IMG/VR virus record: IMGVR_UViG_3300032782_000018
Location: 1-41,479 of that record
From: a virus
Length of the DNA: 41,479 bases
Reading direction: 5' to 3' (one strand)
Shown here: positions 306 to 29,656 of the stretch, in pieces
Position numbering within the stretch: the stretch's first letter is position 1
Layout: the number at the start of each line of letters is the position of its first letter
Notes under the pieces: generated by a model
Database searches by the model: none
Seen by the model: the letters and a program-made list of their open reading frames with translations, nothing else
What the model was told of the DNA's origin: nothing
Position numbers and translations under genes: made by a program

Positions 306-701
306 TTAGCGACTCCGCAGGCAGGCCTCGATGAAGGCGAGCGCCTGGCCATTCTCGATCTCATCGGGGGTAAAACACACGACGCGCCAGCCGAGCCGCG
401 CGCCCCAGTTGCGCTTCTCCATATTGCGCAGGATCGTCGTCGGGTGTCCGTGGGCGCCCTTCACCCAGATCCCGCCGTCGACCTCCACGGCAAGCCGGGG
501 CTCCAGGAAGGCGATGTCCCAGCGCCACTGCCGGCCGTTCGCCTCCTGCGCGAAGCGATACTCGGTCTCAAAGGCAGACAGGCCGCAGTGTCGCAGCTGA
601 AAAAGCAGGAGGTCGTGAGCCGCAGTGCTCTGATCCAGGCGCCTCCTCGCTGTCAGCCTCAATCCTCGGCGGCCCCCGCCCCGGGCGAAGCCGCGCCTCA
701 A
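306..701 (-). CDS. PD-(D/E)XK-type endonuclease, possible Holliday-junction resolvase
   Basis: A 131-residue protein resembling small Vsr/DUF559-like phage nucleases. The core is seen at residues 59-76: a strand with Asp62 (QWRWD) followed by Glu73-Val-Asp75 (AVEVDGG). This is the acidic pair of the PD-(D/E)XK metal site. Such enzymes cut branched or mismatched DNA, and in phages often act as recombination endonucleases. The N-terminus is arginine-rich. The start used is TTG at 699-701, six bases after the TGA of the upstream gene; a later start near residue 30 is possible. It is coupled downstream to the small membrane protein. Confidence 0.7.
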   Translation of the reverse strand: MRRGFARGGGRRGLRLTARRRLDQSTAAHDLLLFQLRHCGLSAFETEYRFAQEANGRQWRWDIAFLEPRLAVEVDGGIWVKGAHGHPTTILRNMEKRNWGARLGWRVVCFTPDEIENGQALAFIEACLRSR

Positions 702-12417: not shown

Positions 12418-13527
12418 TCAGGCTACCCGGGTGATGGAGAGAGTGCTGCCCGCCTTCATGGCGGTGGCATTGGAGCTTGAGGAATTCTGCGCGAACTGGA
12501 CGTTGAGGGAGCCGCCGGTGGCGGTCTGGATGATGATGTCGCAATTGGCGAAGTCCCCCGTGGTGGAGGAGATCGCCGCCTGCCCGAATGCGTTATTGAG
12601 CGTGGCATAGAGGGCCGAGACACTCGCGTTGCCGTTGCCGCTCATCGTGCCCCCGCCACCGGTCGTGGCGTTGCCGTTCAGCGTGCCGCCGTAGGCAATC
12701 GCGATCTTCCAGCCCTGGCCCGTGCCACCGGTGCCCAGCAGCAGGGCGCGCAGCGAGAGGAGATAGGTCGCATTCGGCAGCAGGGTTGCCTGCAGCTGCG
12801 TGTCGTTCACGAGCACCGTGCTCGAGGCCACCAGCTGATCGGTCGTCTTGTTGATGACCTGCGGCACCCCGAGCGGGTACCAGCGCAGCCAGCGCCCGGG
12901 CTGCGCGCTCGGCACCACGGAAGGTTTCAGAACCGTGCGCCCGTCATCGGTGGCGGTGGAGGTCGTCGACCAGTAGAAGAAGCCCCCCAGGCCGTCGTTG
13001 ATGGCCGTCCCGCCCTGCACCTCGATGTTGATCGTCTGTCCGACCGCAGGGGTGGGCTCATTCGCGCTGCGCACATCGGCGAACACGTCATAGGACTTGA
13101 CCGCGTTCGCGACAAAGTCGACGCCACCGGCCGGTCCCACCCCCGCCGTGTTGGAATTCGCAGGACTCAACAGGGTATTGGCCAGCGTGATGGAAACGTT
13201 CGTGGGATCGTTGATCGCGGAGATCTGGTCCAGCTGGATCAGGGTATTGCCCTGCGCATCGAGCACGACGAGCTTGAGCACAATGCCGGGTGCGTTCCAG
13301 AAGGCAACGGGCGCACCGGTCCCGGGCGCGGTCGGGCGGCCGGCCGCGTTCAGCGTGAGCGGGTTTGGATTCTGGACCGTGCCGGTACTGTCTGAGTAGG
13401 TCGCGGCGAGGGTGTTCACCGTGCCGGCCGCGTAGGTGTAGACGGAGGCACCCGCAGCAATGAGCCCCAGGTTTGTGAAGTACTGGATGATCAGGGAGAT
13501 GGGGGACATGTAGACGGTGTTGGCCAT
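12418..13527 (-). CDS. Tail fibre or tail-tip protein
   Basis: A 369-residue protein rich in Gly, Ala, Thr, Ser and Asn. The N-terminal ISLIIQYFTNLGLIAAGASVYTYAAGT...PNPLTLNAAGRP pattern is shared by many podophage tail fibre adaptors. The middle (GGFFYWSTTSTATDDGRTVLKPSVV) and a beta-rich C-terminus follow. It lies immediately upstream of the tailspike, with one base between stop and start. It is likely either the tailspike's adaptor or a second fibre. Confidence 0.75.
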   Translation of the reverse strand: MANTVYMSPISLIIQYFTNLGLIAAGASVYTYAAGTVNTLAATYSDSTGTVQNPNPLTLNAAGRPTAPGTGAPVAFWNAPGIVLKLVVLDAQGNTLIQLDQISAINDPTNVSITLANTLLSPANSNTAGVGPAGGVDFVANAVKSYDVFADVRSANEPTPAVGQTINIEVQGGTAINDGLGGFFYWSTTSTATDDGRTVLKPSVVPSAQPGRWLRWYPLGVPQVINKTTDQLVASSTVLVNDTQLQATLLPNATYLLSLRALLLGTGGTGQGWKIAIAYGGTLNGNATTGGGGTMSGNGNASVSALYATLNNAFGQAAISSTTGDFANCDIIIQTATGGSLNVQFAQNSSSSNATAMKAGSTLSITRVA

Positions 13528-13533
13528 ACGGGC

Positions 13534-14856
13534 TTACTCGTAGTGGAACTCGGTGGCATAGCCGTGCGCCTTAAGACGCGGGATCTCCTCCTCCAGCTTC
13601 TCGCCGATGTCATCCCGGTAGATCATGTCGGCGACCTGGATCTGATCGAGCGTGTCGTACGCGCGCATGCACGCCTGTCGCACCGTGCGGCCCATCCCGG
13701 TGACCACCATGAGATAGTCCCCGGCGCTCGCCCAGATCTCCTGCTCGATGACCTTCTCACCCTTCATATCCGGCAGGCGCATCCGCTGCACGCTTTGCGG
13801 CCAGAGGTAGGGTTGATTGTCAGGCGTGACGCCGTAGATGGGGATGCCGCCGACTTCGGACTTCGTCGCTTTCGAGTAGGGGTAGTCCGGCTGCGCAAGC
13901 ACAACACCGCAGGCCACTTTGAGACTCGTTTTCAGGGTGTTCTGCCCCCTGCAGGCGTCCAACATCCACTTGACCGGATCGCCCTGGTGGGAGGCGATCT
14001 GGATATTGAAGGCGGGCCAGCCTAAGCGACAGGTGAATTCGAGCGGCCAGGCCTTGCCCGACTCATCGACGATACAGTTGACGTCGATGTCCCCCAGGTG
14101 ACCCATTTTCACCAAGGACTCCTCCAGGGGACCCAAGACCTGCTCGCCGAGCTTGGAGGTCTCGACATACTTCTGCACCGTGCCCGCCTCCCCGCAGTTA
14201 GGTCCACAGTTGCCCGAGAGGAGTTTCTTGTGTTCAAAGTTCTCGTTATAGAGCCCCACCCAGCCCTCTTTGCCCATCCAGCGGCTGACCCCGATCTCCT
14301 GACCCTCGATGAGCGCCTGCAGCATGACCGGACCGCGCGGATTCAGGCCGAGTTTCTGCCAGCGCTGCAGACGGGCGATGAGATCGGCTGGGGTCTTACC
14401 GACGTAGGAGAGGCTCTTGTCCTCCTCATCCCCGAGCGTCTTGAAAACATACCGGCGCTCGGTCTTGCGTACGTGCGCTTCGGCGTCCGACAGCGTTTTG
14501 AACTGCTGCCACTCCGGCACTTCAATCCCGTGGGCCTCAAAAAACTCCATCCCGAAGGCACGCTTGATTTCCAGCCGGGCGGATTTTTCCGATGGCCCAA
14601 AGACCGCGATACCGGCGGCGCGTAGCTGCTCGAGCTTCGGCAGGTAGAGGTGATTGCCGGTGGGCAGGATGAGATCGGCCCACCGGGCGGAAGGTAGCCA
14701 CTGCTCAATGCGCTCGATCCCGGGAAAGCCACGACCGACGTCCGGGTGATTGCTCTTGTGCAGCCACAGACGCACGGTGTGCCCGGCCTTCACGCAGCGC
14801 AGGGCAAAGGCAAGTCCCTCACCCACCCCGTCCAGATTGAGGATCAGGACTTTCAT
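13534..14856 (-). CDS. PurD-like ATP-grasp ligase
   Basis: A 440-residue protein with the ATP-grasp plan of phosphoribosylamine-glycine ligase. Seen in order: an N-terminal Rossmann-like part (MKVLILNLDGVGEGLAFALRC), FGPSEKSARLEIKRAF (86-101), VFKTLGDEEDK (137-147), an adenine-binding LQALIEGQEIGVSRW (179-193), FEHKKLLSGNCGPN (207-220) and the metal-binding PLEFTCRLGWPAF (271-283). In PurD the last motif reads EFNxRFGDPE; here Asn is Thr and the GDPE end is lost. The substrate may therefore differ from phosphoribosylamine plus glycine. It lies between tail fibre and ejection-protein genes, coupled by ATGA, far from any nucleotide-synthesis genes. Confidence 0.8.
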   Translation of the reverse strand: MKVLILNLDGVGEGLAFALRCVKAGHTVRLWLHKSNHPDVGRGFPGIERIEQWLPSARWADLILPTGNHLYLPKLEQLRAAGIAVFGPSEKSARLEIKRAFGMEFFEAHGIEVPEWQQFKTLSDAEAHVRKTERRYVFKTLGDEEDKSLSYVGKTPADLIARLQRWQKLGLNPRGPVMLQALIEGQEIGVSRWMGKEGWVGLYNENFEHKKLLSGNCGPNCGEAGTVQKYVETSKLGEQVLGPLEESLVKMGHLGDIDVNCIVDESGKAWPLEFTCRLGWPAFNIQIASHQGDPVKWMLDACRGQNTLKTSLKVACGVVLAQPDYPYSKATKSEVGGIPIYGVTPDNQPYLWPQSVQRMRLPDMKGEKVIEQEIWASAGDYLMVVTGMGRTVRQACMRAYDTLDQIQVADMIYRDDIGEKLEEEIPRLKAHGYATEFHYE

Positions 14857-17324
14857 CGCTCGCGCGGCTTCTCGCGCTGCTTCAACGCCTCACCGATCGG
14901 TAGCGGTTGGGGTGCAGCACCGCCCGGTAGCGTCTGACCACCCGATTCCAGAGTCTCGACAGCCGCGCGGCGAGCACGCGCCGCCTGGAGGCGTTCGACC
15001 TCACGCGCTGTCTCCTCGAGTGGGGATGTGGTCGCCCGCTCGACGGTTTTTCCCAGCTGGCCGAGCTCTCCCACCTGCTTGAGCAGTTTCTTGCCCCCGA
15101 CCGCATATTTACCCCCGGGTATGTGCTTCAACACCCGCTCAAAGAGACTGAGCGCATTCGGTACCGTCCCGGACTGCGTGGTGCGTCCGCCCACCGGGGA
15201 GCGCGTCGTGATGCGGCGGGCCCGCAGAATCGCATCCAGCTCCCGCACGTTGGAGCGGCCCAGGATCTCGATGAGGTTCTCGCGCGGGATGCGCTTGATC
15301 GAGCGGCGCAGGGCCGCCTCCGTCAGGATCGCCCGCTCGGTCTCATCCGCCGCCGTGACGTTACGCGCATCCTCCAGGATGCGGTTCACCGTCTCCGCCC
15401 GGATGTCGCGCCAGGCCGCGCGTCCCGCCGTGCGGGTCGCCGCGGTCCCGCCGGTCAGGAGCGTGCGCTTCACCTGACGCAGCTGCTCGAGACTGCCGGT
15501 CGCCACCTTGTTCCAGGTCTTCTCCAGCGCCAATTGACGGTCCGAGGCGCCCTTCTTGGTACCGACCAGGTTGCGCACCGCGGTCTGGTCTTTGAATTCC
15601 TCCTGATGCTTGCGAAAGGCATCGGTGGCCTTCTTCCAGGCCGCAGCGCCCTCCGGCACGTCTTGCATCGCGGTGTCGATCGCCTCTTTCAGCTGCGAGG
15701 CGTAGTGACCGGCCGTCCCGCCGGCTTTGATGTTCTTGTTCGCAAGCTTGCGCAGGTCATCGAGCTCGTTCAGCGTGACCTCTTTCAGCTCCGGGAGATT
15801 CCCCGCCTCGTCCCGTGGCAGGACGCTGCGCGCCTTGTTCAACCAGCTCTGCACCCAGCCCAGATGCTGGATGTCGGGATTCTCGGTCAACAGGTCGGTG
15901 ATGGGCTTGAGCCCCGCTTTGGCATCCGGCTCGGTCTCGCGTGCCTTGCGGTAGAGGCCCTCGACGACCTTGCGGCTCCACTTCGCCTTCCCCCGGGCCG
16001 CCTCCTGAGCGGCCTGGCCGACCTGCGTCGGCGTCTTAGTCTCCCGCCGGATCGAGGGGGTGGCGGCGGGCTCGCCTTCCTCGGTCAGCGGGTCGTGCAG
16101 TCCTCCGCGCAAGCCCCCGGCGCGTCCCCGCAATACTTCCAGGTTCGCCTGCAGGTCACGGTTTGCTGCAATGTCCACGTCCCGGATGGGCTGACCCTCA
16201 GTCGTGTTCGATGCGATTGCCTCTCGTCGTAGCTGTACGGGGTCGCGCTCGAGTTGCCCCCGGGTGGCCTGGACGGGGACCCGCAGTCCTCCGAGGGCGG
16301 CCTGACGCTTGACGGCAGCAGGGTTGAGACGCTCGAGGGCGGTAGCGTCCTGGGCAATTGTCGTGAGCGCTTTGCGTGTCCCAGCGCCCAGAGCAGCCCA
16401 ATCAAGGCCAATACGGTCAGCATAGGCGCGAGCCCTTCCTTCAGGGGTGGGGGGAGGCGTGGAACGTGTCTCGGGCGCAGGTCCCTCGCCCACCTGGGAG
16501 GGCGCCTGACGGGGCGCCCCGGTGGTCGTCAAATCCGGCGCAGGGGCCGCTTGGGGGGCTGTAACGGGCTCCCCGACCTGGGAGGGCGGCTGTCGAGCCG
16601 CCCCCGTAGCGCTCATTTCAGGCGGCAAATTCGGAGGTGATGTTCCACGGGAGGATGTTCCACGGGGTGCGGTCTCGCCTACCTCGGCCGGCGCTTGACG
16701 CGGCGCACCACTGGCCGACATCTCCGCCGCCGCAGCGCTCCCCTGGGTCGCGCGCTTCAACGCCCGGCCCCCGGCGCGCAGAGCCGGCGGGAGCGCCGCC
16801 CCGGCCGCCGCCTGGATGCCGGTATCGACCAATGTCGCCAGCTCCGCAGAGCCGGTCACATCCTGGGTCTTCTCCCCCAGGTACCGCGACCCCTTCTGCA
16901 GCAGCGTGAAGGGCACGGCAATCGCCCCTGAGACCGCCTTGCCAATCTTCGTGCGCGGCTGCAGGGTGAGCGCCTGCTGAACGTTCTCGACCGTCTGCCC
17001 ACCCTCCTGGACAAAGGCATCGCGGGCTCCCCGCAGGCCCTCACCTTGTGAGAGCGCCCCGGCCGCCGCCCCAGCGCCCCGGGCGAGGCCTGCGATGCCC
17101 CCGACGGCCGAGCCGACCATGCCGCTTGCGATATGAAGGGCAGGCTCCCCGACGGCCTCCTCGATGATGTCCCCGACGCCGCGGATCCGGCCGGTGGTCG
17201 GGTCGAGCTTGCCGAACTGCGGGCCCTTGTTGAGGTCGGTGACCGCCGCATCCAGTTGCTCGGGTGTGTCGAAGGACACCCGCGCCTTGCGACCGTCCGG
17301 GAGGGTGACGATGGCTTGAGGCAT
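14853..17324 (-). CDS. Large internal virion (DNA ejection) protein, P22 gp16-like position
   Basis: An 823-residue protein, third in a set of three ejection-protein candidates. Residues about 65-95 are a glycine-rich hydrophobic stretch (ASGMVGSAVGGIAGLARGAGAAAGAL) able to enter membranes. A proline-rich linker holds three copies of a 17-residue repeat (201-280). Long charged helical regions follow. In P22, gp7, gp20 and gp16 are ejected to make a channel for DNA; sizes and order here (216, 498, 823 residues) parallel them. No transglycosylase motif was seen. Confidence 0.75.
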   Translation of the reverse strand: MPQAIVTLPDGRKARVSFDTPEQLDAAVTDLNKGPQFGKLDPTTGRIRGVGDIIEEAVGEPALHIASGMVGSAVGGIAGLARGAGAAAGALSQGEGLRGARDAFVQEGGQTVENVQQALTLQPRTKIGKAVSGAIAVPFTLLQKGSRYLGEKTQDVTGSAELATLVDTGIQAAAGAALPPALRAGGRALKRATQGSAAAAEMSASGAPRQAPAEVGETAPRGTSSRGTSPPNLPPEMSATGAARQPPSQVGEPVTAPQAAPAPDLTTTGAPRQAPSQVGEGPAPETRSTPPPTPEGRARAYADRIGLDWAALGAGTRKALTTIAQDATALERLNPAAVKRQAALGGLRVPVQATRGQLERDPVQLRREAIASNTTEGQPIRDVDIAANRDLQANLEVLRGRAGGLRGGLHDPLTEEGEPAATPSIRRETKTPTQVGQAAQEAARGKAKWSRKVVEGLYRKARETEPDAKAGLKPITDLLTENPDIQHLGWVQSWLNKARSVLPRDEAGNLPELKEVTLNELDDLRKLANKNIKAGGTAGHYASQLKEAIDTAMQDVPEGAAAWKKATDAFRKHQEEFKDQTAVRNLVGTKKGASDRQLALEKTWNKVATGSLEQLRQVKRTLLTGGTAATRTAGRAAWRDIRAETVNRILEDARNVTAADETERAILTEAALRRSIKRIPRENLIEILGRSNVRELDAILRARRITTRSPVGGRTTQSGTVPNALSLFERVLKHIPGGKYAVGGKKLLKQVGELGQLGKTVERATTSPLEETAREVERLQAARARRAAVETLESGGQTLPGGAAPQPLPIGEALKQREKPRER
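16485..16724 (-). repeat. Three imperfect coding repeats in the ejection protein
   Basis: Residues 201-217, 236-252 and 264-280 of the encoded protein share the pattern xM/LS/TA/TxGAxRQxPxxVGE. The start-to-start distances are 35 and 28 residues. At DNA level each copy also carries a GC-rich inverted repeat, for example GGGCGGC/GCCGCCC. Differences between copies indicate an old duplication under protein-level selection. Confidence 0.7.
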
Positions 17325-17327
17325 CGC

Positions 17328-18824
17328 TTACTCCGGCAGGATCTCAATGGTGGCACCGGATGAGTGCCGGTAGGTGGCCCCAGGTTGCAGAGCGGCGGGG
17401 AACTTCGGGGCAGGAGGCGTTTCAGGTTTTCCTGTTTTCGTATCCCCACCGCCCTTGTCCGTCTCACCGCCACTCTTGAGCGCCTCATCCATGCTCTTGC
17501 CATGGACGAGCGCGTCCAGGACCGAGGAGTTGCCGGCCTGGATCGCCCGGGCGATCTTTTTCGAGCGCTCCACCGCGCGCTCGAGCTCCGGCAAGGACAT
17601 CTTGTCCGGGAAGGCGTGCTCTGCGGCGATACGCACCGAGTCGGTCACCTGGCCGCCGCGGGAGAGGACGGAGGCGAATTCCGCCCGGGTGTCCGCCAGT
17701 GCATTCACATACTCGGAGATGTTGGGGTCTGCGATGACATCCCCGGCCTTCCAGAGCTTGAGCGCATTCACAAATTTCGCGCTGCCGAAGTCCACCTTCT
17801 TGGCGGTCTCCTGCAGCTGATCGTAGAGACCGCCCTCGCGGTTCAGCGCATTGATGGCCGCTGCCGCCGAGCCCTCACGCCGCGCCACCACATTGGCCTC
17901 GGTCTTCGCCGCCCCCGTCTCGATCTGGCCCGCGCGCACGCGCTTGGCGATCTGGTCCGCCCCTTCATCCGGGTGCCGCTCAATGAGCGCCTGGATGGTG
18001 CCCAGCATCTGTTGCTTGGCGCGCAGCCCCGTCGGGAGCGCCACCCCGATGTCCGCCATCGCCGCCAGCACCTGACCGACCGAGCCGCCGAAGTCCCCGG
18101 CCCCTGAGGCATTGCCGATGCGCTTGTTGCCCTGGCCCTCCATCTCCCGGTTGTGACGCTCCGACTCCTCCTCGCGTCGTGCCTGGGTGTCGGCTTTGAA
18201 CTGGTTCAAACGTTGGGCGATGGCCTCCTTCCCCGCTTTCGATTTCGCCTCCCATCCCTCCAGGGTCGCGAGCGTGTAGCCGCCGGGGATATTGGTGGCC
18301 ATCTTGAGCACATCATCGGGAAGCGCGGGCTTGCCGTCCCCCAGTGTCTGACCGCGCAGGTTCTGCAGCGCCTGCGGCATCTGCGCGGTGATGAAGGCCT
18401 TCACATCAAAATCCGAGGCACCGTTGTTCTTCATCTGCCGGGCCTGCGCTACGATCGGATCGATCGCCCCCACGATCAGATCCTGCCGCTGGCCGGCGAG
18501 GGTCAGCTGATCCAGCTGCTGTTGGATCTGCCCACTCTGGTACTGCTGCCCCCACTTCAAGATGTCCCGGGAGGCGCGCGGGGAGACGCGGTTCACATCC
18601 GCCGCGGCTTTCGCCAACCCTTCCGGGGTGGAGACGTCCGACTTCTTGAGGATGTCATCGACCTGGGACTGCTCGCGCGCCTCCTTCTGCGCCGCCCCCA
18701 GCTGCAGCTGATTCAGCTGGTTGCGGTTCATCATGTCTTTGATGGTGAGGGCTTTCTCCTGCGCCTGCACCGGGTTGCCCGCATAGTCGGGGATCGCCGA
18801 GATGATGGAAGGATCAAACGCCAT
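17328..18824 (-). CDS. Internal virion (DNA ejection) protein, P22 gp20-like position
   Basis: A 498-residue, mostly alpha-helical protein rich in Gln and Ala. The N-terminal segment (NPVQAQEKALTIKDMMNRNQLNQLQLGAAQKEAREQ) is typical of podophage ejection proteins. The C-terminus has a low-complexity linker (GGETDKGGGDTKTGK) and a short terminal beta motif. Middle member of the three-gene set and nearly the length of P22 gp20 (471). Confidence 0.75.
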   Translation of the reverse strand: MAFDPSIISAIPDYAGNPVQAQEKALTIKDMMNRNQLNQLQLGAAQKEAREQSQVDDILKKSDVSTPEGLAKAAADVNRVSPRASRDILKWGQQYQSGQIQQQLDQLTLAGQRQDLIVGAIDPIVAQARQMKNNGASDFDVKAFITAQMPQALQNLRGQTLGDGKPALPDDVLKMATNIPGGYTLATLEGWEAKSKAGKEAIAQRLNQFKADTQARREEESERHNREMEGQGNKRIGNASGAGDFGGSVGQVLAAMADIGVALPTGLRAKQQMLGTIQALIERHPDEGADQIAKRVRAGQIETGAAKTEANVVARREGSAAAAINALNREGGLYDQLQETAKKVDFGSAKFVNALKLWKAGDVIADPNISEYVNALADTRAEFASVLSRGGQVTDSVRIAAEHAFPDKMSLPELERAVERSKKIARAIQAGNSSVLDALVHGKSMDEALKSGGETDKGGGDTKTGKPETPPAPKFPAALQPGATYRHSSGATIEILPE

Positions 18825-18836
18825 GAGCGCAACTCC

Positions 18837-19487
18837 TCAAACCGGGTTGTTGGCCTGCAGGCCGGATTGCGTGTTGAGGGCCTGCAACGCCGAGAGCGTC
18901 GCGTAGTTATCACTCGCGTTGCCGATCGACTTGGTGATGCCGGCGATCGTGTTGGCATCGATCCCCGCGGTCGTGTTGCCCTGGTTGATGAGCGTGGAGG
19001 AGATGTTGCCGGCCGCGGTGCCGACGTTCTGCGCTTGTCCGGCCGCCGCCGCCTGCCCGGTCGCCACCGCCGAGCCGATGTCGGCGACGTTCTGCTGATA
19101 GGTCTGGGAGGCCAAGCCGGTGTTGTACTGATCGAGCGCGGCGAGCGTATTGCCGGTCACCCCGCCGGTGGCCGAGGCCGCATTCAGGATACCGGTCTCA
19201 CCCTGCTTCTGTGCGAACTGATAGCCAGGGGTTGCCGCCAGGGCCGCCTGGATACTGTCGGGACTTGCGTTCGCATCAAGACCGAGCAGCCGCTCATACT
19301 GGGGGATCGCGGCAGACCCGAGATCGCGGTACGGCTGCGAGAGCGCGGCTTGCTGATTGAGCGCGGCCTGCTGCTCACTGATGGCGGCATTGGAGGCGCT
19401 CTTCGTAGCGCTTGCGGCTTCCGACCCTGCAACGGCGGATCCGGCGGCGCCCACGACGGCGGCCCCGACAACGGCGGCTGCGACCAT
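18837..19487 (-). CDS. Internal virion (DNA ejection) protein, P22 gp7-like position
   Basis: A 216-residue Ala/Gly/Gln-rich protein. ATG 19485-19487 has GGGAGGG upstream and starts MVAAAVVGAAVVGAAGSAVAG, a glycine-zipper-like hydrophobic stretch. ISEQQAALNQQAALSQPYRDLGSAA follows, a pattern common in small podophage ejection proteins. The frame is open further upstream but overlaps the acetyltransferase gene. Length is close to P22 gp7 (229). Confidence 0.75.
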   Translation of the reverse strand: MVAAAVVGAAVVGAAGSAVAGSEAASATKSASNAAISEQQAALNQQAALSQPYRDLGSAAIPQYERLLGLDANASPDSIQAALAATPGYQFAQKQGETGILNAASATGGVTGNTLAALDQYNTGLASQTYQQNVADIGSAVATGQAAAAGQAQNVGTAAGNISSTLINQGNTTAGIDANTIAGITKSIGNASDNYATLSALQALNTQSGLQANNPV

Positions 19488-19491
19488 ATCC

Positions 19492-19974
19492 CTACCCTCC
19501 CCACCAGAAACTAAAGTACAGATCCGCCTCGACCCCGCCCATCTGCCGGAACATCTCCTGCGCAGAGCGGTGCACCTTCGAGCCAAGATAGGCGCGCTTC
19601 ACGCCCCGGGTGACCGCCTCGAGCTTCACCCGCTCGAAGAGGGCCTGTGCCAGCATGTCACCCTCCAGCATCGTCAGCGAGTCTTTGTCCCGGAAGTCCG
19701 GGTGCAGCCAGAAGATGTCCTCGGTCAGATGCAACGTCGAGCGGTAGTGATGGTGCGTGTCGATGAAGCCGATGAAGTAGCCGACGATGTGACCGCGCTC
19801 GCGCGCCACCACGCAGAGCACCCTGCCGGTGAGGTCCATCTGCAGGTACCACTCGTACTTGGGATCCAGCGGCACCTGCTCCTGGTTGAGCGCAAGCTCC
19901 CGCCAGTGCGGCTGGAAGAGCGGCTTCAGCTCCTCGAGGCAGTCGACCAGCTTCTCGACTTGAACGGTGATCAT
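19492..19974 (-). CDS. GNAT-family acetyltransferase
   Basis: A 160-residue protein starting MITVQVEKLVDCL. It matches a phage-specific GNAT family: HWRELALN (24-31), VPLDPKYEWYLQMD (34-47), the central strands LCVVARERGHIVGYFIGFI (53-71), HYRSTLHLTEDIFWLHPDFR (76-95), then the acetyl-CoA-binding helix region and YLGSKVHRSAQEMFRQMGGV. Its substrate is unknown; the family is widespread next to podophage head-tail genes. ATG 19974 overlaps the small upstream gene by ATGA. Confidence 0.85.
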   Translation of the reverse strand: MITVQVEKLVDCLEELKPLFQPHWRELALNQEQVPLDPKYEWYLQMDLTGRVLCVVARERGHIVGYFIGFIDTHHHYRSTLHLTEDIFWLHPDFRDKDSLTMLEGDMLAQALFERVKLEAVTRGVKRAYLGSKVHRSAQEMFRQMGGVEADLYFSFWWGG

Positions 19975-20171
19975 GGCTTTGCGATCCCGGAACATGCCGG
20001 ACTGTGGGCGTGGTGATCCTCCCACATTGCCTGAAGGATCGAGCGCGACCAGTCGAGGACATCCTCCCCGGCCAACCGGTCCCGCATCGGGATCTGCCGC
20101 CGGCCGAGCGCACAGCCGGAGCAGGTGTACTCGAGAAAGAGCTCCCGGGCAGGGGAGGCGACTGCGCTCAT
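19971..20171 (-). CDS. Small Cys-containing protein between oxygenase and acetyltransferase
   Basis: A 66-residue protein, MSAVASPARELFLEYTCSGCALGRRQIP..., coupled by ATGA overlaps at both ends. That supports it being real. CSGC (residues 17-20) and Cys/His in the end (HHAHSPAC) could bind a metal. No family recognised. Its coupling to two enzymes suggests it belongs to the same function. Confidence 0.65.
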   Translation of the reverse strand: MSAVASPARELFLEYTCSGCALGRRQIPMRDRLAGEDVLDWSRSILQAMWEDHHAHSPACSGIAKP

Positions 20172-20764
20172 GAGGCTTCCGGGACCTGGGTGGGTGTCAG
20201 GCCTTTGAACGCCAGGTGCTGCGTGCGGATGTCGATGATCAGGTGCATACGGTCCTGACCGGAATTGTTGATGACCTCATGCTCCAGGGCATTCTGGAAC
20301 CACCAGACATCGCCGGTCTGCATTTGCACGTCCTCCTCCCCGCAGCGGAATACGACGCCTGGACTGCTCGCCACCACGTAGTGGAATCGATCCCAGTACT
20401 GCGCGTGCTCCGGGGTGTCGGCGTGGGGGTAGATGCGCCCGCCGGGACGGATGCGATTGATCATCACGCGCCCTAAGCGCTCGCCCTCTACCTGCGACAT
20501 CAGGGCAAAGATGAGCGGGCGGACGGCCGGCAGGTGCAGCATGCCGTCCATCCAGATGCACTCATGCGGGTCTCTCTGCGAGCGCTGCAATTCCGTCACC
20601 GAGGCCGGCGGGAAGCGCAGGAAGATCGTCTCGACATCCTGGAAGGGACCTTGCGGGTAGTCCCGCAGATAGGTGTCCTCGCGCCACAGATGCGGTTGCC
20701 GCTGGATCTGCACCGCCAGCGGAATCACGTTGACGTTGCGGCCGAGGAGTTGAAAGTTCCTCAT
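20168..20764 (-). CDS. Aspartyl/asparaginyl beta-hydroxylase-like 2-oxoglutarate/Fe(II) oxygenase
   Basis: A 198-residue protein. The double-stranded beta-helix signature is visible: His114-x-Asp116 (IYPHADTP), FHYVVASSPGVVFRCGEE (127-144), GDVWWFQNALEHEVINNSG with His162, and Arg172 in RMHLIID for 2-oxoglutarate. The HxD...H triad is complete, whereas mammalian AspH lacks the acidic ligand. Such enzymes hydroxylate Asp/Asn side chains or small molecules. Coupled by ATGA to the genes on both sides, within the tail module. Confidence 0.85.
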   Translation of the reverse strand: MRNFQLLGRNVNVIPLAVQIQRQPHLWREDTYLRDYPQGPFQDVETIFLRFPPASVTELQRSQRDPHECIWMDGMLHLPAVRPLIFALMSQVEGERLGRVMINRIRPGGRIYPHADTPEHAQYWDRFHYVVASSPGVVFRCGEEDVQMQTGDVWWFQNALEHEVINNSGQDRMHLIIDIRTQHLAFKGLTPTQVPEAS

Positions 20765-21024
20765 ACCGCCGCCCCCGTGGCATCACACCACACGGTGGGG
20801 CTTAAGGACTGCACCCAGATCGGTTTGCCGAGCGTCGTGTCGAAGTAGCGCCGTCCGACCCACAGACCCGCCGTCGGCCGCTGCGCGGTGGTGCCGCTCG
20901 TGGAAAGCGCCGAGAGGATGTTGTGCGCGACCGTGAACCAGCCGCCCCATTGCAGCGTGAAATTGTACGCATCCCCGGCAGGGGTCAGGGGAGGCTTCGG
21001 CAGGCCGCTTAAGGGGGAGCTCAT
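20761..21024 (-). CDS. Small tail-module protein
   Basis: An 87-residue protein. The C-terminal part (GTTAQRPTAGLWVGRRYFDTTLGKPIWVQSLSPTVWCDATG) is a widely seen phage motif, often at the ends of fibres or in small structural proteins. Coupled by ATGA on both sides between the gp10-like protein and the oxygenase. Probably a minor virion component. Confidence 0.65.
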   Translation of the reverse strand: MSSPLSGLPKPPLTPAGDAYNFTLQWGGWFTVAHNILSALSTSGTTAQRPTAGLWVGRRYFDTTLGKPIWVQSLSPTVWCDATGAAV

Positions 21025-22526
21025 GCCGAGGCCTTTGAGGAGGGTGCCTGTCGGCCCCCGCGCACCTTCGTGCGCACCGCTCCGCCTGCGATCACGAACT
21101 TGATAGGGTCGGTGCAGCGGATGCGCAGGTTCGCGGTGCGGGCCCGGCCCCAGCGGCGCGAATTCACCCGCACCGTGTCCTGGCCCATCCGGCCGAGGGA
21201 GATCATGCGCTCCATGCCGAAGTGCCGGCCATCCCGGGCGATCGAGAGTCCGATGCGCGGCTCATAGCCCTGAAGGCTTGGGTTACTGAGGCCGACGCCG
21301 GTCTCCATGTCCAGGTAGATCTGCGGGATGGAGAAGGTATTGAATTCCTCGAGCGCCACGCGCGTCACCAGCTCGCGCACGATCACGTTGCCGTTGTCGG
21401 TGTAGGTGTTCGCATCGGGGGTGTAGAGGTTGCCGTTCGCATAGTCCGCGATCATCTGCTGTCCGTAAGCGCTGCAGGCGAGGTTGCCCAGGTGCCGTGC
21501 GGCGTAGCCGGAGGTGATGCCGGACTGCACCTCGCCCCAGAAACCGGTGGTCGTGTCGAGCAGGAGTGAGCGGTTGGCGGTAGGAAAGTTGAATTGCGCA
21601 AAGAGGTGGTTGTCCCACAGGAACGAGTAGCCGGTGCAGTCGGTGATGGTGGAGGTGCTCGCCATCGTCTGCAGGATGTTATCGATGTCGGAAGTTGAGA
21701 CGATGTCGACCGCGTATCCCCGGATCCGCGCGATCTGAAAGCTGCCGGCCGAATTCTGGAACGACCCGCCGTTGGTCTTGGCGAGGAAGAGCAGCGACTC
21801 ACCCGCATGCACCCGGCTCCCGATCGCGGCCAGTCCCGTCATGGAGGCACTGTTGGTGATGTACTGGAAAGGCTCGGGGTTGCCGCCCACGTTCTGCCAG
21901 AACTCGGTGTGACCGGCGGAGAACACCACGAGGATCCCATTCAGGGTATCGCAGGCTTTGATGCCATCAATGGCCTGCACCGCAGAGCCGAACGACAGGC
22001 CGTTCCACACCGTCCCGTCGTTGAAGGCCGAGACGAAAAACTGATTCGTGCCGGGCAGCTCGCAGATGAAAAAGCCGTTGCAGTAGGTGACGGTGCGCGC
22101 ACCGTTCGGAAACGCCGCAGGCGCGATCGTGATCGCCCCGGTGGCCGGATTGAACACGTAGCCGGCCGAGCCATCGACGATCATCAGCTGCGTTGGATTG
22201 AGCGCCATGCCCACAAGTCCCGTTGAGGTGCCGATGGACCCCTGCGTAAGAGTGCCCCCGGTGGCGCTCAACGACTTCACCTGGTTGCCGCCCACGGTGT
22301 AGAGCGCGGTATCGGTGCCGATCGTGCCGCGCAGCGGCTGGTTCTGCGGCGTCATGACGTTGAAGAGCAGTTTGAGCCCGGGCGTGCCATAGAGCACGAT
22401 CGAGCTTTTGTCCTTGTCCGGACGCACCTCGAGGTAGCAGTTCAAGCGCCGCTGCCGGGTGACGATGGCGGACTTTGAGTACACCCCTTCGCCGAACAGG
22501 GCGATCTTCTTAAGGCGCGCGGTCAT
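21021..22526 (-). CDS. P22 gp10-like tail accessory (packaged DNA stabilisation) protein
   Basis: A 501-residue beta-rich protein with repeated propeller-like strands (GTPGLKLLFNV, ALYTVGGNQVKSL, GFFICELPGTNQFFVSAF, ILVVFSAGHTEFWQN, YSFLWDNHLFAQFNF). Length and pattern fit P22 gp10 (472), the hub connecting the gp4 ring to tail needle and spikes. It follows the gp4-like gene with an ATGA overlap, as expected. Confidence 0.8.
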   Translation of the reverse strand: MTARLKKIALFGEGVYSKSAIVTRQRRLNCYLEVRPDKDKSSIVLYGTPGLKLLFNVMTPQNQPLRGTIGTDTALYTVGGNQVKSLSATGGTLTQGSIGTSTGLVGMALNPTQLMIVDGSAGYVFNPATGAITIAPAAFPNGARTVTYCNGFFICELPGTNQFFVSAFNDGTVWNGLSFGSAVQAIDGIKACDTLNGILVVFSAGHTEFWQNVGGNPEPFQYITNSASMTGLAAIGSRVHAGESLLFLAKTNGGSFQNSAGSFQIARIRGYAVDIVSTSDIDNILQTMASTSTITDCTGYSFLWDNHLFAQFNFPTANRSLLLDTTTGFWGEVQSGITSGYAARHLGNLACSAYGQQMIADYANGNLYTPDANTYTDNGNVIVRELVTRVALEEFNTFSIPQIYLDMETGVGLSNPSLQGYEPRIGLSIARDGRHFGMERMISLGRMGQDTVRVNSRRWGRARTANLRIRCTDPIKFVIAGGAVRTKVRGGRQAPSSKASA

Positions 22527-23572
22527 GGGCCGTACGGATCATCGGAGTTGACTTCGAAATAGACACTCGAATTCTCAGGGTTGCCTTGCTTCGCAATCGC
22601 CAGCGACTCCACGAGATTCTCCTGCAGGTCACTCGTCCAGGCGCAATCGAACATCGGGGCGATGTCCTTCGCATGCCCGAGCACGAGCGGCCGGAACCAC
22701 TCCTGGGGGTAGTCCGGGGCATCCCCCGGGTTCACCAGATCCTGCACCGGTGAGAGGTACACGCAGTGCAGGTACTTGGTCACGTCCTGCGCGCCCCCGA
22801 CATCCAGGTACAACTGCCCGTTGGGTGCCTGCGACTTGAATTGCGACTCGTACAGGACGGCGGTGGGATCGGCAATGTTGGTGGGCGCGGTCTTGGTCGG
22901 GAGCGCCTCGTACTCCTCCACCGTACGAAAGAGGCGCAGCGGGGTGTCGTTCGCGTAGATGTCGCGCAGCGTGACTGCCAGCATGACGAGCGGCCGGATG
23001 CCTTTGGTCGTGTAGTTCCACACGTTGGCATTCGCAAGCGCAGCCCCCGACAGACCCGGCGCCGAGATGGTCACGGTTCCCACCCCGATGTTGGCAACCC
23101 GTGTCCAGTAGATGTTGCTGCCCACCTGGATACCGATGTAGTCCTGCACGTTCAACTGACTGGTCGAGGCCACATTCAACACGGTCGCGCCCTGCGCCGC
23201 ATTCCCCGACAGCGTGGTCTGGCCGAAGGTTTTGGGATAGGCAAGACCGGTGGTGGAATCCACCCAGTTGTCCCCGCTTGCCCCTAAGTTGTAAAGATAG
23301 CGGGTATTGTCGAGGAAGAGATCCGCGCGCTTGCGTGTCCACACCTTCAAGCCCGGGGCAAAGTCCGTGTTGCCCATCCACTGCTTGACCATCATGTTGA
23401 GCTTCAACGCGCAGTCGCGGATCTCATCCGGCGTGGGGTACTCCTCCGGCTGCAGGGCGCCGATGTCCAGCATCGCCTGCCGGATGATCTGATCCCGGGT
23501 AACCGAGAAGGAGTAGGACCCGGAAGTGGCGGGCGTGAAGGCGCTCGAGAGATTGATATTGAGAGCGGTCAC
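22523..23572 (-). CDS. P22 gp4-like head-tail connector protein
   Basis: A 349-residue protein. Residues about 20-75 (SFSVTRDQIIRQAMLDIGALQPEEYPTPDEIRDCALKLNMMVKQWM) are the helical ring-forming domain of gp4/tail-tube-A-like connectors. The middle part is a beta-rich insertion. The C-terminal part resumes the connector fold. It is about twice the length of P22 gp4 (166). GTG 23570-23572, one base past the upstream stop, is chosen; the open frame beyond it is shadow. Confidence 0.8.
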   Translation of the reverse strand: MTALNINLSSAFTPATSGSYSFSVTRDQIIRQAMLDIGALQPEEYPTPDEIRDCALKLNMMVKQWMGNTDFAPGLKVWTRKRADLFLDNTRYLYNLGASGDNWVDSTTGLAYPKTFGQTTLSGNAAQGATVLNVASTSQLNVQDYIGIQVGSNIYWTRVANIGVGTVTISAPGLSGAALANANVWNYTTKGIRPLVMLAVTLRDIYANDTPLRLFRTVEEYEALPTKTAPTNIADPTAVLYESQFKSQAPNGQLYLDVGGAQDVTKYLHCVYLSPVQDLVNPGDAPDYPQEWFRPLVLGHAKDIAPMFDCAWTSDLQENLVESLAIAKQGNPENSSVYFEVNSDDPYGP

Positions 23573-23573
23573 A

Positions 23574-25256
23574 TCAGGCGACCTGGATGAGCGGGGAGAC
23601 GGTGCGGATCGCCGCGCGGATGAGCCCCCAGGCCGCCGCCCCGTCAATGTCGGCCTGGCACTGTGCGGTGCCATCCTGCGGATCCCCCTCCGCCCGGTAC
23701 TGCTTACAGAATTCCCAGCCGTAATGCATCTGGTGACAGGCCGGCGCCTCATTGTTGCCCCGGCCCGGGCAGACCGTGTGCGGGCTGAAGATCGCGAACG
23801 TGTTGATCCAGTCGCGCGTCAAGTTCTCGTGCGTACTGTGCGAGAGGAAGATGATCTTCGGCATGGGCAGGCACGAGGCCGCGTTCATGACGCCGGTCTC
23901 AGGCCCGATGAGGAGGTCCACGCGCTCCACGAGCGCCATGGTCTCGCGGATGGTGTACTTGCCCGCCCGGCAGTGCACACGCGGCTCCTTCTCCCAGCCG
24001 CCCTCCAGGATCGCCGAGTCCGCCCCACCCACCAGGACGATATGGGCTTTCTGGAATTCGACGAGGATGCTCGCGATCGTCTGATCGAGCCCGCCCCAGG
24101 TCTTATGCACCGAGGAGCCGTTGAGTGACCAGAGGATGAGCGGCTCGCCTCCCAGTCGCTGCCGCTCTTGCGTCGCCCAGCGCTGCTCGGCGTCGGTGGC
24201 AAAGAAGCGTACCCGCGGCACGTGTGGGACGCCCGCGATGGCATGTTGCATCTCCACATAGTTGTGGTTCATGTAGCGATGCCGCGCGGGGGCAGACCAC
24301 AGATGGGGGGTACGCCCGGGCACGGAGAGTAGCGTGCATTCCACACTCTCCGACAGATTCACCCATTTGTTGTACTTGCGACTCTCGTGCCTCCAGAAGT
24401 CGGCGAGCAGATGGTTCGGGACCTGATCCTTGTCCTGCAGGTAGATCACATCGACGTGCGGGTCGTTCAGGATCACCTCGTGGCCCGGCGCGGAGGTGTA
24501 GAGCGTGGTGTGATAGCCCTGCTCAGACAGGCCTGCCAGGACCGAGGACACCTGGAGCAGATCCCCGTAAGCGCCATAGCGGACCAGGCCGCAGGTCTTG
24601 CGGGCGAGCCGGGCGCGCTGCTTCTCCGCGTAGCTGAAGCGCCGGCCACTGCCTGATCGCTCGAACACAAAGAACAGCGAGTATTCGTTGTCGTGGTTGC
24701 GCTTCTGGAAGTCGACCAGGTCCCAGCTGTGGCCGGTCTTCGTCATCAGCTGCACGATGGTGTCGTAGTTGCAGTTGAAGCAGTGATCCGGGTTCGCGCC
24801 CTCCTCGCCCACCTTCGGGTACTCCTCCTCATCCGGGACGTACAGGATCAGGTAACCGCCCTTCTTCAACACCCGCATCCACTCGCGCAGCGCCTCCTCC
24901 GCCGTGTGCCTCTCCATCATCATCTTCTCCGCCATCGCCCGCGCGATCGGGTTCGGCCACTTGCGCGGGTCATCGAAAGTCAGCGGGAAGTGCTCGAGCA
25001 GATGGGAGGCAAACACGAAGTCCATGCTGCCGGAGGCAAACATGGGGAGCTCGGCTGCGGTCTGGACACGCACATCCGGATTGATCGGGTGACCAAAGAG
25101 CACGCCATCCTTGCCGTTGTCGACGCCGATGAAGTGCGGGAAGGTCTTGGCGAGGCCGCACCCGAGATCCAAGCCCTGCCCGCGCGTCCACCGCACGATC
25201 TCCCACTTGATCTTCCCCGACTCATTGCCTTGCGGCGCGTTGATGTCCCAGACCAT
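23574..25256 (-). CDS. SAM methyltransferase fused to GT9-like glycosyltransferase
   Basis: A 560-residue two-domain enzyme. Residues about 15-200 are a class I methyltransferase: GLDLGCG (28-34), acidic GVD (44-46), MDFVFASHLLEHF (78-90) and KKGGYLILYVPD (131-142). Residues about 221-500 resemble glycosyltransferase family 9 (heptosyltransferase/ADP-heptose type): VRYGAYGDLLQVSSVLAGL (225-243), LILWSLNGSSVHKTW (373-387), and the donor-site loop LLIGPETGVMNAASCLPMPKIIFLS (448-472). A Cys-rich end follows. Both activities on one chain suggest a methylated sugar or glycan product. It sits between virion genes, one base from the gp4-like gene. Confidence 0.85.
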   Translation of the reverse strand: MVWDINAPQGNESGKIKWEIVRWTRGQGLDLGCGLAKTFPHFIGVDNGKDGVLFGHPINPDVRVQTAAELPMFASGSMDFVFASHLLEHFPLTFDDPRKWPNPIARAMAEKMMMERHTAEEALREWMRVLKKGGYLILYVPDEEEYPKVGEEGANPDHCFNCNYDTIVQLMTKTGHSWDLVDFQKRNHDNEYSLFFVFERSGSGRRFSYAEKQRARLARKTCGLVRYGAYGDLLQVSSVLAGLSEQGYHTTLYTSAPGHEVILNDPHVDVIYLQDKDQVPNHLLADFWRHESRKYNKWVNLSESVECTLLSVPGRTPHLWSAPARHRYMNHNYVEMQHAIAGVPHVPRVRFFATDAEQRWATQERQRLGGEPLILWSLNGSSVHKTWGGLDQTIASILVEFQKAHIVLVGGADSAILEGGWEKEPRVHCRAGKYTIRETMALVERVDLLIGPETGVMNAASCLPMPKIIFLSHSTHENLTRDWINTFAIFSPHTVCPGRGNNEAPACHQMHYGWEFCKQYRAEGDPQDGTAQCQADIDGAAAWGLIRAAIRTVSPLIQVA

Positions 25257-25274
25257 GGCTACCTCCTCACACGT

Positions 25275-25802
25275 TCAGAACCGTAGATAGGTTTTCTCCG
25301 CGTGGAAGGCATATGCCCGGTCAGACGCGGTCAGGAACTCTCGCACGGCTTCAGCCGCGCCGGGAAGACAGTCCGCATCGTCACACCAGATGATGCCGCC
25401 AGGCACCATGCGCGGGGCGAGATAGGCGAGTGACTCGCGATAGCTCTGGTACTGATCACAGTCGAGGTGCGCAAAGGCGATCGGCTCCATGGGGATCGCG
25501 GATTGCGGGAAGATACCGGGGATGACCCGTGCGCCAGGGCACAACGACCGCACGCGCTCAAGGCTCGTATCGGCAAAGTCACCCACCTGGTGGGAGTCGA
25601 GCTTGCCGCGGTAGGGAATGCCCTGGAAGGTGTCGTACAGGTAGACCGGGCGCAGCTGCGCCAACCCTGCCTGGGTGAGAAGGACGGCCGAGCCGCCCTG
25701 GTACACCCCCACCTCGAGGAAACAACCGGCCGGAGTCGCTTTCGCCTTGGCGATCATGGCCTCGAGGTGATGAGGCGCGATCAGGCTAAGCGGCCCGGCC
25801 AC
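25275..25802 (-). CDS. TylF/MycF-like SAM-dependent methyltransferase
   Basis: A 175-residue protein with the sugar O-methyltransferase plan: SAM motif FLEVGVYQGGSAVLL (28-42), YDTFQGIP (56-63), metal-binding acidic motif HLDCDQYQSYRES (112-124) and GGIIWCDDAD (135-144). Shorter than TylF (about 250), lacking N-terminal parts. GTG 25802 has GAGGAG upstream. TylF-type enzymes methylate sugar hydroxyls. Next to the MT-GT9 fusion, a sugar substrate made or transferred by that enzyme is likely. Confidence 0.85.
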   Translation of the reverse strand: MAGPLSLIAPHHLEAMIAKAKATPAGCFLEVGVYQGGSAVLLTQAGLAQLRPVYLYDTFQGIPYRGKLDSHQVGDFADTSLERVRSLCPGARVIPGIFPQSAIPMEPIAFAHLDCDQYQSYRESLAYLAPRMVPGGIIWCDDADCLPGAAEAVREFLTASDRAYAFHAEKTYLRF

Positions 25803-27426: not shown

Positions 27427-27921
27427 CTATTGAGTAAGGCCTGCGCCGACCTGGATCTGATAGTCGATCGTGCAGGCCGTCACCGCCGTCGCATCCGTCC
27501 CGGACACACAATACACGAGCGCGCCTTGCGGTACGGGGATGCCCCCGTAGCCTGAGGTGCCGCTATTGGTGTTGAGCACGAACTGATTCGCCCCGCCGAT
27601 CGCCGCCGTGGCCAGCCCCTGCCCGCCGGCCAGGTAGGGCCCATAGGTGGTCGTCGCGAGAGAAACCGCCGTGCCCGTCGTGTTCGTATTCACGATCGTG
27701 ATCACGGAGATCTGCTGACCGCTCGCCGTCGCCGTGCCCCCGGTGGTGTAGGTCGAGGTGCCGAGCGTCTGCAGATAGGTCGTGAGGGAGAACAGCTGCA
27801 GGGCTGCGAAGGCGACGAACTTGGAGGTCTGGCCGCCGCTGCCGGCGGTGACAGACCCGAGGTTCGCGTCCTGCCGGCTCAGGTAGGACGGATCCGTCTG
27901 GTTTTTGACTGCCTGCGACAT
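27427..27921 (-). CDS. Candidate head decoration protein, paralogue A
   Basis: A 164-residue Gly/Thr/Ser/Ala-rich beta protein. The core (TSKFVAFAALQLF... GTSTYTTGGTATASGQQISVITIVNTNTTGTAVSLATTTYGPY) is shared with the next protein, at 27928-28539. Position just after the capsid gene fits a decoration or capsid-stabilising protein. No enzymatic motif seen. Confidence 0.65.
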   Translation of the reverse strand: MSQAVKNQTDPSYLSRQDANLGSVTAGSGGQTSKFVAFAALQLFSLTTYLQTLGTSTYTTGGTATASGQQISVITIVNTNTTGTAVSLATTTYGPYLAGGQGLATAAIGGANQFVLNTNSGTSGYGGIPVPQGALVYCVSGTDATAVTACTIDYQIQVGAGLTQ

Positions 27922-27927
27922 GCGCGC

Positions 27928-28539
27928 TTACCTGAGGATATTGCCGTTCACAGGCTGGATGGAGACCTGCAGGATCGGGATGATCACCGCGGTCGCATCC
28001 GTCCCCATGACGAACGTGATCGAGTCGCCCTCGTTCATCGGCAGGCCACCGAAGCCGATGCCTGGAGCGCCCGGCGGGCCCTGGTTGCTGGCCGTGAAGG
28101 TCTGCGTCCCCCAGGCCTGGGTGGTGTTCGTGCCGCCCAGGGTATTGAGCGCATACGGTCCCTGGTAGCCGCCTGCGATGCCGCCTGAGGTGCCGCCCAC
28201 CGAGACGTTCGAGCCGGCAGTCGAGGTACCCCCGATGGTGAAGGGTCCGACCGTGTTCGTGGCCAGGGAGACCGCGGTGCCGGTCGTATTGGTGTTCGAC
28301 ACGTAGAGTGCCGACATCTGGGTGGCCGGGTTGGTAGCGGTGCCGGCGACCGTGTAGGTCGAGGTGCCCGCTGTGACCGTGGCGAACGTCACGCCCCATA
28401 CGACCATCTTGGTCCAGGCGACGAACTTGCCGCTCGTGGAGCCTGAGCCGGCCGAATTCTGCGCCAGCTGCACGCCGATGCGCGCGAGCACCGCAGGCGC
28501 ATCGTATCCCACCTGACCGACAGCATTGTTCTGAGACAC
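27928..28539 (-). CDS. Candidate head decoration protein, paralogue B
   Basis: A 203-residue protein homologous to the gene that follows it. Shared features are SGKFVAWTKMVVW, GTSTYTVAGTATNPATQMSALYVSNTNTTGTAVSLATNTVGPF and a terminal VMGTDATAV segment. It is longer by a Gly-rich insertion with a collagen-like GPPGAPG. First gene after the capsid gene and its downstream hairpins; GTG start at 28537-28539. Confidence 0.65.
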   Translation of the reverse strand: MSQNNAVGQVGYDAPAVLARIGVQLAQNSAGSGSTSGKFVAWTKMVVWGVTFATVTAGTSTYTVAGTATNPATQMSALYVSNTNTTGTAVSLATNTVGPFTIGGTSTAGSNVSVGGTSGGIAGGYQGPYALNTLGGTNTTQAWGTQTFTASNQGPPGAPGIGFGGLPMNEGDSITFVMGTDATAVIIPILQVSIQPVNGNILR

Positions 28540-28624: not shown

Positions 28625-28658
28625 GCGTAAGTACGCCGTACTTACCCCGTACTTACGC
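28625..28658 (-). repeat. Three-copy GTAAGTAC repeat overlapping the capsid stop codon
   Basis: GCGTAAGTAC (28625-28634) and GTACTTACGC (28649-28658) are exact 10-base inverted arms. Between them lies another GTACTTAC (28638-28645). On the capsid coding strand this gives two direct copies of GTAAGTAC and one inverted copy, so two alternative hairpins are possible. The capsid TAA is inside the first copy. Confidence 0.75.
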
Positions 28659-29642
28659 TGCGCTGTCCCACTTCACGATGCGGGCATTGATGGCGAGGGT
28701 GTGCACGATGCCGAACCCACCGACGTAGTACCAGGCGATGCCCTTGCTGCGACCGTAGTCGCCCGGGATCTTGCCGCGCATCTCCTCAGGACACGTGATC
28801 GCCTCGGCGACGGTGTCATTTCCGAAAAAGAACATCCAATCGCTCTGTCCGTTGGTCCACTGCACCATGTCACCGCCGGTCGCGGTGGCGATGCCGGTCG
28901 AGCCGTTGCCCTTGGCCAGATTCGTCTGTTCTACGTACCTGCAATTCTCGTAGCGGCCGATTTCTGCGTTCATAATCAAGCCCATACCCGTATCGGAATA
29001 CTGGTGTATCCCTTCCAGGTTGTTCTTGAAGCCGCGCAGCGTGGACGGCCAGGAGAGGTTGTAGTAGTCGTCGGCGATGTACGCGGGGATGTTCCGCTCC
29101 TTCATCGCATCGACGATGGCTTTCGCGTGCGCGTTCGAGTACGCGACGTTGTTCGTGCCGGTCACCGTGCCGTTGGTGTAGAGGGTGATGGCCACCGCGG
29201 AGGAGCCGCCGGTCGGGATCACCCGCAGCAGAGTCTGGTTGAACTGGCCCCAGGTCAGACGGTCGAGCGTCTTGACGGTGTCGTTCTTCAGGCCCTTCTT
29301 GATGATGTCCTCAACCGGGTACTTGGACAGATTGTCCAGGAAGCCCGAATACGGGATTGAGTTGCCGGCCTCCGTGATCGTGAGGGTCCCTTGGGTGATC
29401 GTTAAATTGGTCTCAGGCATCGTGTTGGTCTCGATGAGTACCTGACCCACCTGAGCCACATCTGAGACCACGTCCCACGTGAACGTGTTGCCCTTGCGCT
29501 TGCCCTGCTGCGCCGAGTCGTGAACGTCGGCGAACTGCCTGAACTTGGTCAGCGGCTGCACCGTCATGCGCAGCACGTTGGACAACTGCCGGGAGTAGAG
29601 AAAGCCGCCCAGTGTATTGACGGCCCAGACTTGACCTGCCAC
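28653..29642 (-). CDS. Major capsid protein
   Basis: A 329-residue HK97-fold candidate directly after the scaffold gene. It starts AGQVWAVNTLGGFLYSRQLS, then has an N-arm, P-domain-like and A-domain-like segments, and a conserved C-terminal MRGKIPGDYGRSKGIAWYYVGGFG. Length fits podovirus coat proteins of the BPP-1 type (about 330). GTG 29640-29642 is chosen, with a GGGGG site upstream; TTG at 29654 adds four residues. Flanked on both sides by inverted repeats, suggesting special mRNA control of a highly expressed gene. Confidence 0.85.
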   Translation of the reverse strand: MAGQVWAVNTLGGFLYSRQLSNVLRMTVQPLTKFRQFADVHDSAQQGKRKGNTFTWDVVSDVAQVGQVLIETNTMPETNLTITQGTLTITEAGNSIPYSGFLDNLSKYPVEDIIKKGLKNDTVKTLDRLTWGQFNQTLLRVIPTGGSSAVAITLYTNGTVTGTNNVAYSNAHAKAIVDAMKERNIPAYIADDYYNLSWPSTLRGFKNNLEGIHQYSDTGMGLIMNAEIGRYENCRYVEQTNLAKGNGSTGIATATGGDMVQWTNGQSDWMFFFGNDTVAEAITCPEEMRGKIPGDYGRSKGIAWYYVGGFGIVHTLAINARIVKWDSAA

Positions 29643-29656
29643 GCAAACCCCCAAGG

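Follow-up and report, generated by a model that had tools for sequence, protein, structure and literature searches.

To our knowledge, virion glycosylation has so far been shown mainly in mycobacteriophages, and Freeman et al. reportedly described it in 2023 for Che8, Corndog, and Myrna. In Che8, the glycosylation genes are found at the right end of the genome, apart from the capsid gene. PMC12363180, and also PMC12619734, name Che8 gp110 as essential to capsid glycosylation. Among the bacterial autotransporter heptosyltransferases (BAHTs), of which TibC and Aah are compared here, TibC is a protein heptosyltransferase (PMC4358343). The window analyzed in this work, the whole of a 41,479-bp IMG/VR virus record from a podovirus-like phage, resembles the mycobacteriophage systems in carrying a phage-encoded glycosyltransferase, predicted here from genes alone. 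Unlike in Che8, this glycosyltransferase is GT9-type, is fused to an N-terminal methyltransferase, and is encoded in the head operon, and unlike the mycobacteriophages, the phages described here have Gram-negative hosts.

The first-pass annotation had placed five modification enzymes among the virion genes, and the list of open reading frames confirms all five, with the coordinates then given, on the minus strand. Pfam and NCBIfam matches bear out the families then named: a methyltransferase–GT9 fusion (MT-GT9), a TylF-like methyltransferase, an AspH-type oxygenase, a GNAT enzyme, and a PurD-like ligase. The virion neighbors are likewise recovered as portal, major capsid protein (MCP), Hc3, DNA-ejection, and tail genes, and the proposed translational coupling within an operon holds, with most junctions overlapping by 4–8 nt or leaving gaps of 1–18 nt. 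The MCP (28653..29654, minus strand; phrog_1357), the proposed substrate-side partner of MT-GT9, is 48–51% identical to the MCPs of PTXU04/Bas95/Vibrio 219E41-type phages. A nucleotide search of the phage collection with the window gave no match. Elsewhere in the window (306–701, minus strand), a weak match to DUF559, a Vsr-like nuclease (E = 0.004), falls below the curated cut-off. On balance, we favor a reading in which the five enzymes constitute three independently inherited modules within one late virion operon, for which we infer the substrates, the sugar donor, and the order of steps.

The MT-GT9 fusion (23574..25256, minus strand) comprises a SAM methyltransferase (approximately residues 1–205; Methyltransf_11 PF08241, E = 7e-9), a GT-B family-9 glycosyltransferase (approximately residues 215–560; Glyco_transf_9 PF01075, E = 4e-4), and a C-terminal four-Cys/two-His finger. 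The similarity to GT9 is remote, with a PF01075 score just under the cut-off (20.3 vs 22 bits). The AF2 model (pLDDT 82) matches GT9 enzymes in a Foldseek search of the PDB, with 3tov and WaaF (1psw) at the top (E = 1e-12 to 1e-13) and TibC among the closest solved folds. Sequence and predicted fold together place the protein in the GT9 family, with transferase activity as a prediction. The fold, an N-terminal R-x-G-A-x-G-D motif, and a C-terminal G-x-E-T-G motif are shared with the LPS heptosyltransferases WaaC/WaaF/WaaQ, and the NCBIfam glycosyltransferase models that come nearest describe LPS heptosyltransferases III and I. Unlike WaaC/WaaF/WaaQ, MT-GT9 is fused to a methyltransferase and encoded in a virion operon, and identity is approximately 13%. 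The methyltransferase and GT9 motifs are kept across an alignment of 17 relatives, and the two domains are fused in 104 of 107 cases.

The finger pattern, C-x(2-22)-C-H-x2-H-x5-C-xn-C, is strictly present in 130/135 GT9 domains, and variants occur in four more. MT-GT9 is similar to the TibC/Aah BAHTs in its GT9-type GT-B fold. The BAHTs have a four-Cys iron finger near the C-terminus and MT-GT9 a four-Cys/two-His finger on that side, but the Cys spacing differs, with C-x2-C-x15-C-x11-C in TibC (PMC4358343) and C-x2-C-HxxH-x5-C-x10-C in the short phage form. Unlike the BAHTs, the 17 MT-GT9 members did not have the protein-heptosyltransferase model TIGR04414 among their hits (E 0.01), and hhalign found no similarity between the phage GT9 and one BAHT; we therefore claim no homology to BAHTs. 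Searching the PDB with only the GT9 part returned nothing. In tblastn searches of cultured phages (E 1e-5), the window MT-GT9 gave no match, and the sole match to a siphoviral MT-GT9 was weak, covered the methyltransferase part, and belonged to an uncultured phage record.

The genomic position of MT-GT9 was examined in a viral scan independent of the Hc3-based survey described below, which yielded at least 536 relatives. Among the best 80 of these 536, 78 contigs are informative, and in 76 of them MT-GT9 directly follows the MCP: 73 loci are behind an HK97-type siphoviral MCP, three are behind a window-type MCP, two are elsewhere, and two contigs are too short. These two MCPs are unrelated capsid types. 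The median gap to the siphoviral MCP is approximately 120 nt (73 contigs, some of them near-duplicates). In unrelated siphoviral prophages recovered by a genome scan (L198–L202), MT-GT9 directly follows an HK97-type MCP (phrog_617) and precedes genes for head completion or the tail terminator. A predicted glycosyltransferase linked to capsid genes in this way is what would be expected of phage virion glycosylation. In the MT-GT9 tree, the capsid types separate cleanly and one change suffices, which indicates that the gene has long been inherited together with each capsid. The only two loci in this set that are not behind a capsid gene (L345 and L348) have MT-GT9 before the portal gene and form their own branch of the tree.

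In the stretches read, related MCPs of E. coli and Vibrio phages are not accompanied by MT-GT9, so the enzyme is not needed for the capsid fold as such. Comparing MCPs with and without MT-GT9 to find a candidate glycosylation site proved uninformative, with many columns differing by lineage. Prophages that carry the window-type module also emerged from the genome scan, in Paraburkholderia rhynchosiae WSM 3937, Paraburkholderia sp. C35, Polaromonas, Nevskia, and Aromatoleum, and both Paraburkholderia prophages carry AspH, GNAT, and PurD besides MT-GT9.

Directly upstream of MT-GT9, the TylF-like protein (25275..25802, minus strand) contains a TylF/MycF O-methyltransferase domain (PF05711, E = 2e-16), and its activity is predicted accordingly from the domain. 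The two genes are separated by 0–21 nt in all 21 window-type relatives listed, and TylF is also near MT-GT9 in eight siphoviral loci (best 80 of 536), so that both capsid lineages are covered. The best cultured match of the window TylF is the C-terminal part of Che8 gp108 (35% identity over 137 residues), a member of the gp108–110 glycosyltransferase cluster and a neighbor of gp110. Most likely, MT-GT9, sometimes with TylF, modifies the phage head. The GT9 domain would move a sugar, probably from a host sugar nucleotide, onto a small head protein or the capsid, and O-methylation of the transferred sugar would fall to the methyltransferase domain and TylF. ADP-heptose is a possible donor, a guess taken by analogy from the GT9 family. 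We put forward only tentatively, and with some doubt, the more specific proposal that MT-GT9 is a widespread, previously unrecognized capsid-decoration enzyme that uses a host LPS precursor such as ADP-heptose to place methylated heptose on the head and that was inherited with two unrelated capsids. Two related Thr/Ser-rich small proteins, p164 and p203, are encoded between the MCP and TylF/MT-GT9 (27427–28539, minus strand) and occur in three other contigs (L029, L189, and L195); they are possible alternative substrates of head modification.

The second module pairs the AspH-type Fe(II)/2OG oxygenase (20168..20764, minus strand) with the GNAT-fold protein (19492..19974, minus strand; Acetyltransf_1 PF00583, E = 6e-4; phrog_1249). 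AspH has the domain (Asp_Arg_Hydrox PF05118, E = 2e-15) and the 2OG-oxygenase motif of aspartyl/asparaginyl beta-hydroxylases, and the 2-His/1-Asp residues and 2OG-binding Arg (H114, D116, H162, and R172) do not vary across 36 sequences, from which oxygenase activity is predicted. Animal AspH is without the Asp of the HxD...H triad; the window protein retains the triad, and the alignment pairs its HAD with HTG. Its setting, a phage cassette with a GNAT protein, is a further difference from that family. Several GNAT relatives have the acetyl-CoA loop (R/Q)xxGxG/A (HPDHRGAGAG in L102), which is disrupted in the window, L117, and L077, and the window copy of GNAT is possibly inactive. A 66-aa Cys-containing ORF (19971..20171, minus strand) is inserted between the two genes in the window and is absent from all relatives surveyed.

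Across 40 loci, the AspH–GNAT gap is mostly 0 or −3 nt, and the pair immediately precedes the ejection gene, which in the window encodes a DNA-ejection/internal virion protein (18837..19499, minus strand; phrog_598, E = 2e-21). The cultured Pseudomonas phage PfAn1 has the same order of AspH, GNAT, and internal virion protein; AspH and GNAT are also adjacent in Limnohabitans phage DC33, and GNAT alone occupies the equivalent site in MW202796 and in a Vibrio Zobellviridae phage. From its gene position, we consider this most likely a coupled hydroxylase–acyltransferase cassette that acts on the ejection proteins encoded just after it. The DC33 record (PQ492659.1) is filed under Inoviridae, a taxonomy line that looks wrong for a 39-kb genome with AspH–GNAT genes like those of tailed phages. 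In one contig (listed as both L042 and L172), AspH and PurD are each divided into three successive ORF pieces, as if by frameshifts or assembly errors.

The PurD-like ATP-grasp ligase (13534..14856, minus strand) matches GARS_C (PF02843, E = 8e-10), GARS_A (PF01071), and NCBIfam purD (TIGR00877, E = 9e-26). It shares full-length homology and fold with GAR synthetase PurD: its AF2 model (pLDDT 90) aligns with GAR synthetase 2yw2 in a Foldseek search of the PDB (TM 0.76), and much of the ATP-grasp core is retained. The structure prediction called for in the first-pass annotation thus supports a GAR-synthetase fold here and a GT9 fold in MT-GT9. We rejected an identity as GAR synthetase: the score lies far below the TIGR00877 equivalog cut-off (90.6 vs 288 bits) and the signature EFNxRFGDPExQ is lost, reading EFTCRLGWPAFN in the window and similarly across aligned relatives, so GAR synthetase function is not expected.

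Unlike GAR synthetase, the PurD-like protein is encoded in an ejection/tail module rather than a purine operon. Its gene is placed after the ejection genes, and the next gene, tail369 (12418..13527, minus strand), encodes a protein predicted from its sequence to be tail-spike-like. In 84 of 98 loci, this gene is found downstream of PurD at a distance of at most 1.5 kb, nearly always within 26 nt. Most likely, the third module works as an ATP-grasp amide ligase whose specificity has changed and which targets tail-spike or ejection proteins, ATP-dependent amide formation on these proteins being our best guess. A search of the literature on PurD-like enzymes in phage tails found nothing relevant. 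In MW202796.1, an unannotated PurD-like gene of the same family (42146–43444) accompanies a different head. In L154 (9500–15300), PurD and tail369 sit between p140 and p355, the usual MT-GT9 site, and MT-GT9 is absent from the stretch read.

Whether these modules belong to one pathway was assessed in relatives gathered through the neutral anchor Hc3 (head-closure protein; 21021..22526, minus strand; phrog_578, E = 5e-72), which avoids selection on the enzymes, and scored with profiles built here; the surveys comprise the 80 best hits each, and contigs are incomplete. Among the Hc3 relatives listed, MT-GT9 is present in 54/54 and PurD-like in 28/29, with TylF in 11/54, AspH in 15/46, and GNAT in 19/46. 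AspH and GNAT covary (both in 14, AspH only in 1, GNAT only in 5, neither in 26; Fisher p = 6e-7). On the Hc3 tree, AspH changes 9 times and GNAT 10 times, and independent pairs change the same way approximately five times and in opposite ways never (median p = 0.06); after this tree correction, the link is consistent, not significant, and only suggestive. TylF shows no association with AspH or GNAT among the Hc3 relatives listed (p = 0.23 and 0.47, respectively).

The first-pass annotation had suggested that the five enzymes build and attach a single compound group, and all five do co-occur in the nearest clade of the window (L040–L043) and in L102. Against this stand their joint presence in only 4 of 24 fully covered contigs among the Hc3 relatives listed, the lack of linkage between TylF and the AspH–GNAT pair, and the dissociation of PurD and MT-GT9, with PurD present without MT-GT9 in the stretches read of L154 and MW202796 and MT-GT9 without PurD in those of L189, L195, and L029. 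Furthermore, AspH–GNAT occurs in phages, PfAn1 among them, that yielded no match to MT-GT9 or PurD when searched. These co-occurrence data largely refute a single five-gene pathway, which we regard as the least probable of the readings considered. Independent occurrence in related phages, named in advance as evidence against the proposal, is thus seen for the five-gene set and is not seen for the pairs MT-GT9/TylF and AspH/GNAT; similarly, the suggestion of virion-protein modification survives as the best reading for MT-GT9 and TylF, and fails as a joint pathway of five enzymes.

A different target for MT-GT9, with TylF, would be the LPS core or O-antigen of the host, for example to block superinfection, its proximity to the capsid gene then being incidental. 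GT9 is the LPS heptosyltransferase family, as the nearest NCBIfam models reflect, and most of the relatives have LPS-bearing Pseudomonadota as hosts. However, seroconversion genes of temperate phages are typically found outside the virion operon, and a constant site just after the MCP in both of the unrelated capsid lineages, together with presence in all close relatives, would be unusual for such a gene. No flippase-like partner was recognized among the window genes scanned, and we consider modification of LPS unlikely. Glycosylated and aminoacylated bases are also known in phages, and the pathways that make them include glycosyltransferases and ATP-grasp enzymes, which lends some plausibility to hypermodification of phage DNA by the five enzymes. 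Virus-encoded DNA glycosyltransferases are cited in PMC12619734. Among the Pfam-scanned ORFs of a window in which many early ORFs are unscanned or unmatched, no base-modifying gene such as a thymidylate synthase or hydroxymethylase was recognized, and MT-GT9 is tied to capsid genes; DNA modification therefore appears very improbable. Adjacency is itself no proof of a substrate, and the enzymes of the three modules may be expressed late for other reasons.

The place of MT-GT9 right after the capsid gene in two unrelated phage groups suggests that many uncultivated phages attach a methylated sugar to their own heads, the reading we prefer for the first module. The module ideas can be tested directly in the prophages of the Paraburkholderia isolates and in the cultured phage PfAn1. 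If MT-GT9 does glycosylate heads, virion glycosylation would be a common feature of phages infecting Gram-negative bacteria, and the conservation of the enzyme would raise the question of what a capsid sugar coat protects against. The AspH–GNAT and PurD-like modules hint at additional, as yet undescribed modifications of proteins on the ejection and tail side of the virion.
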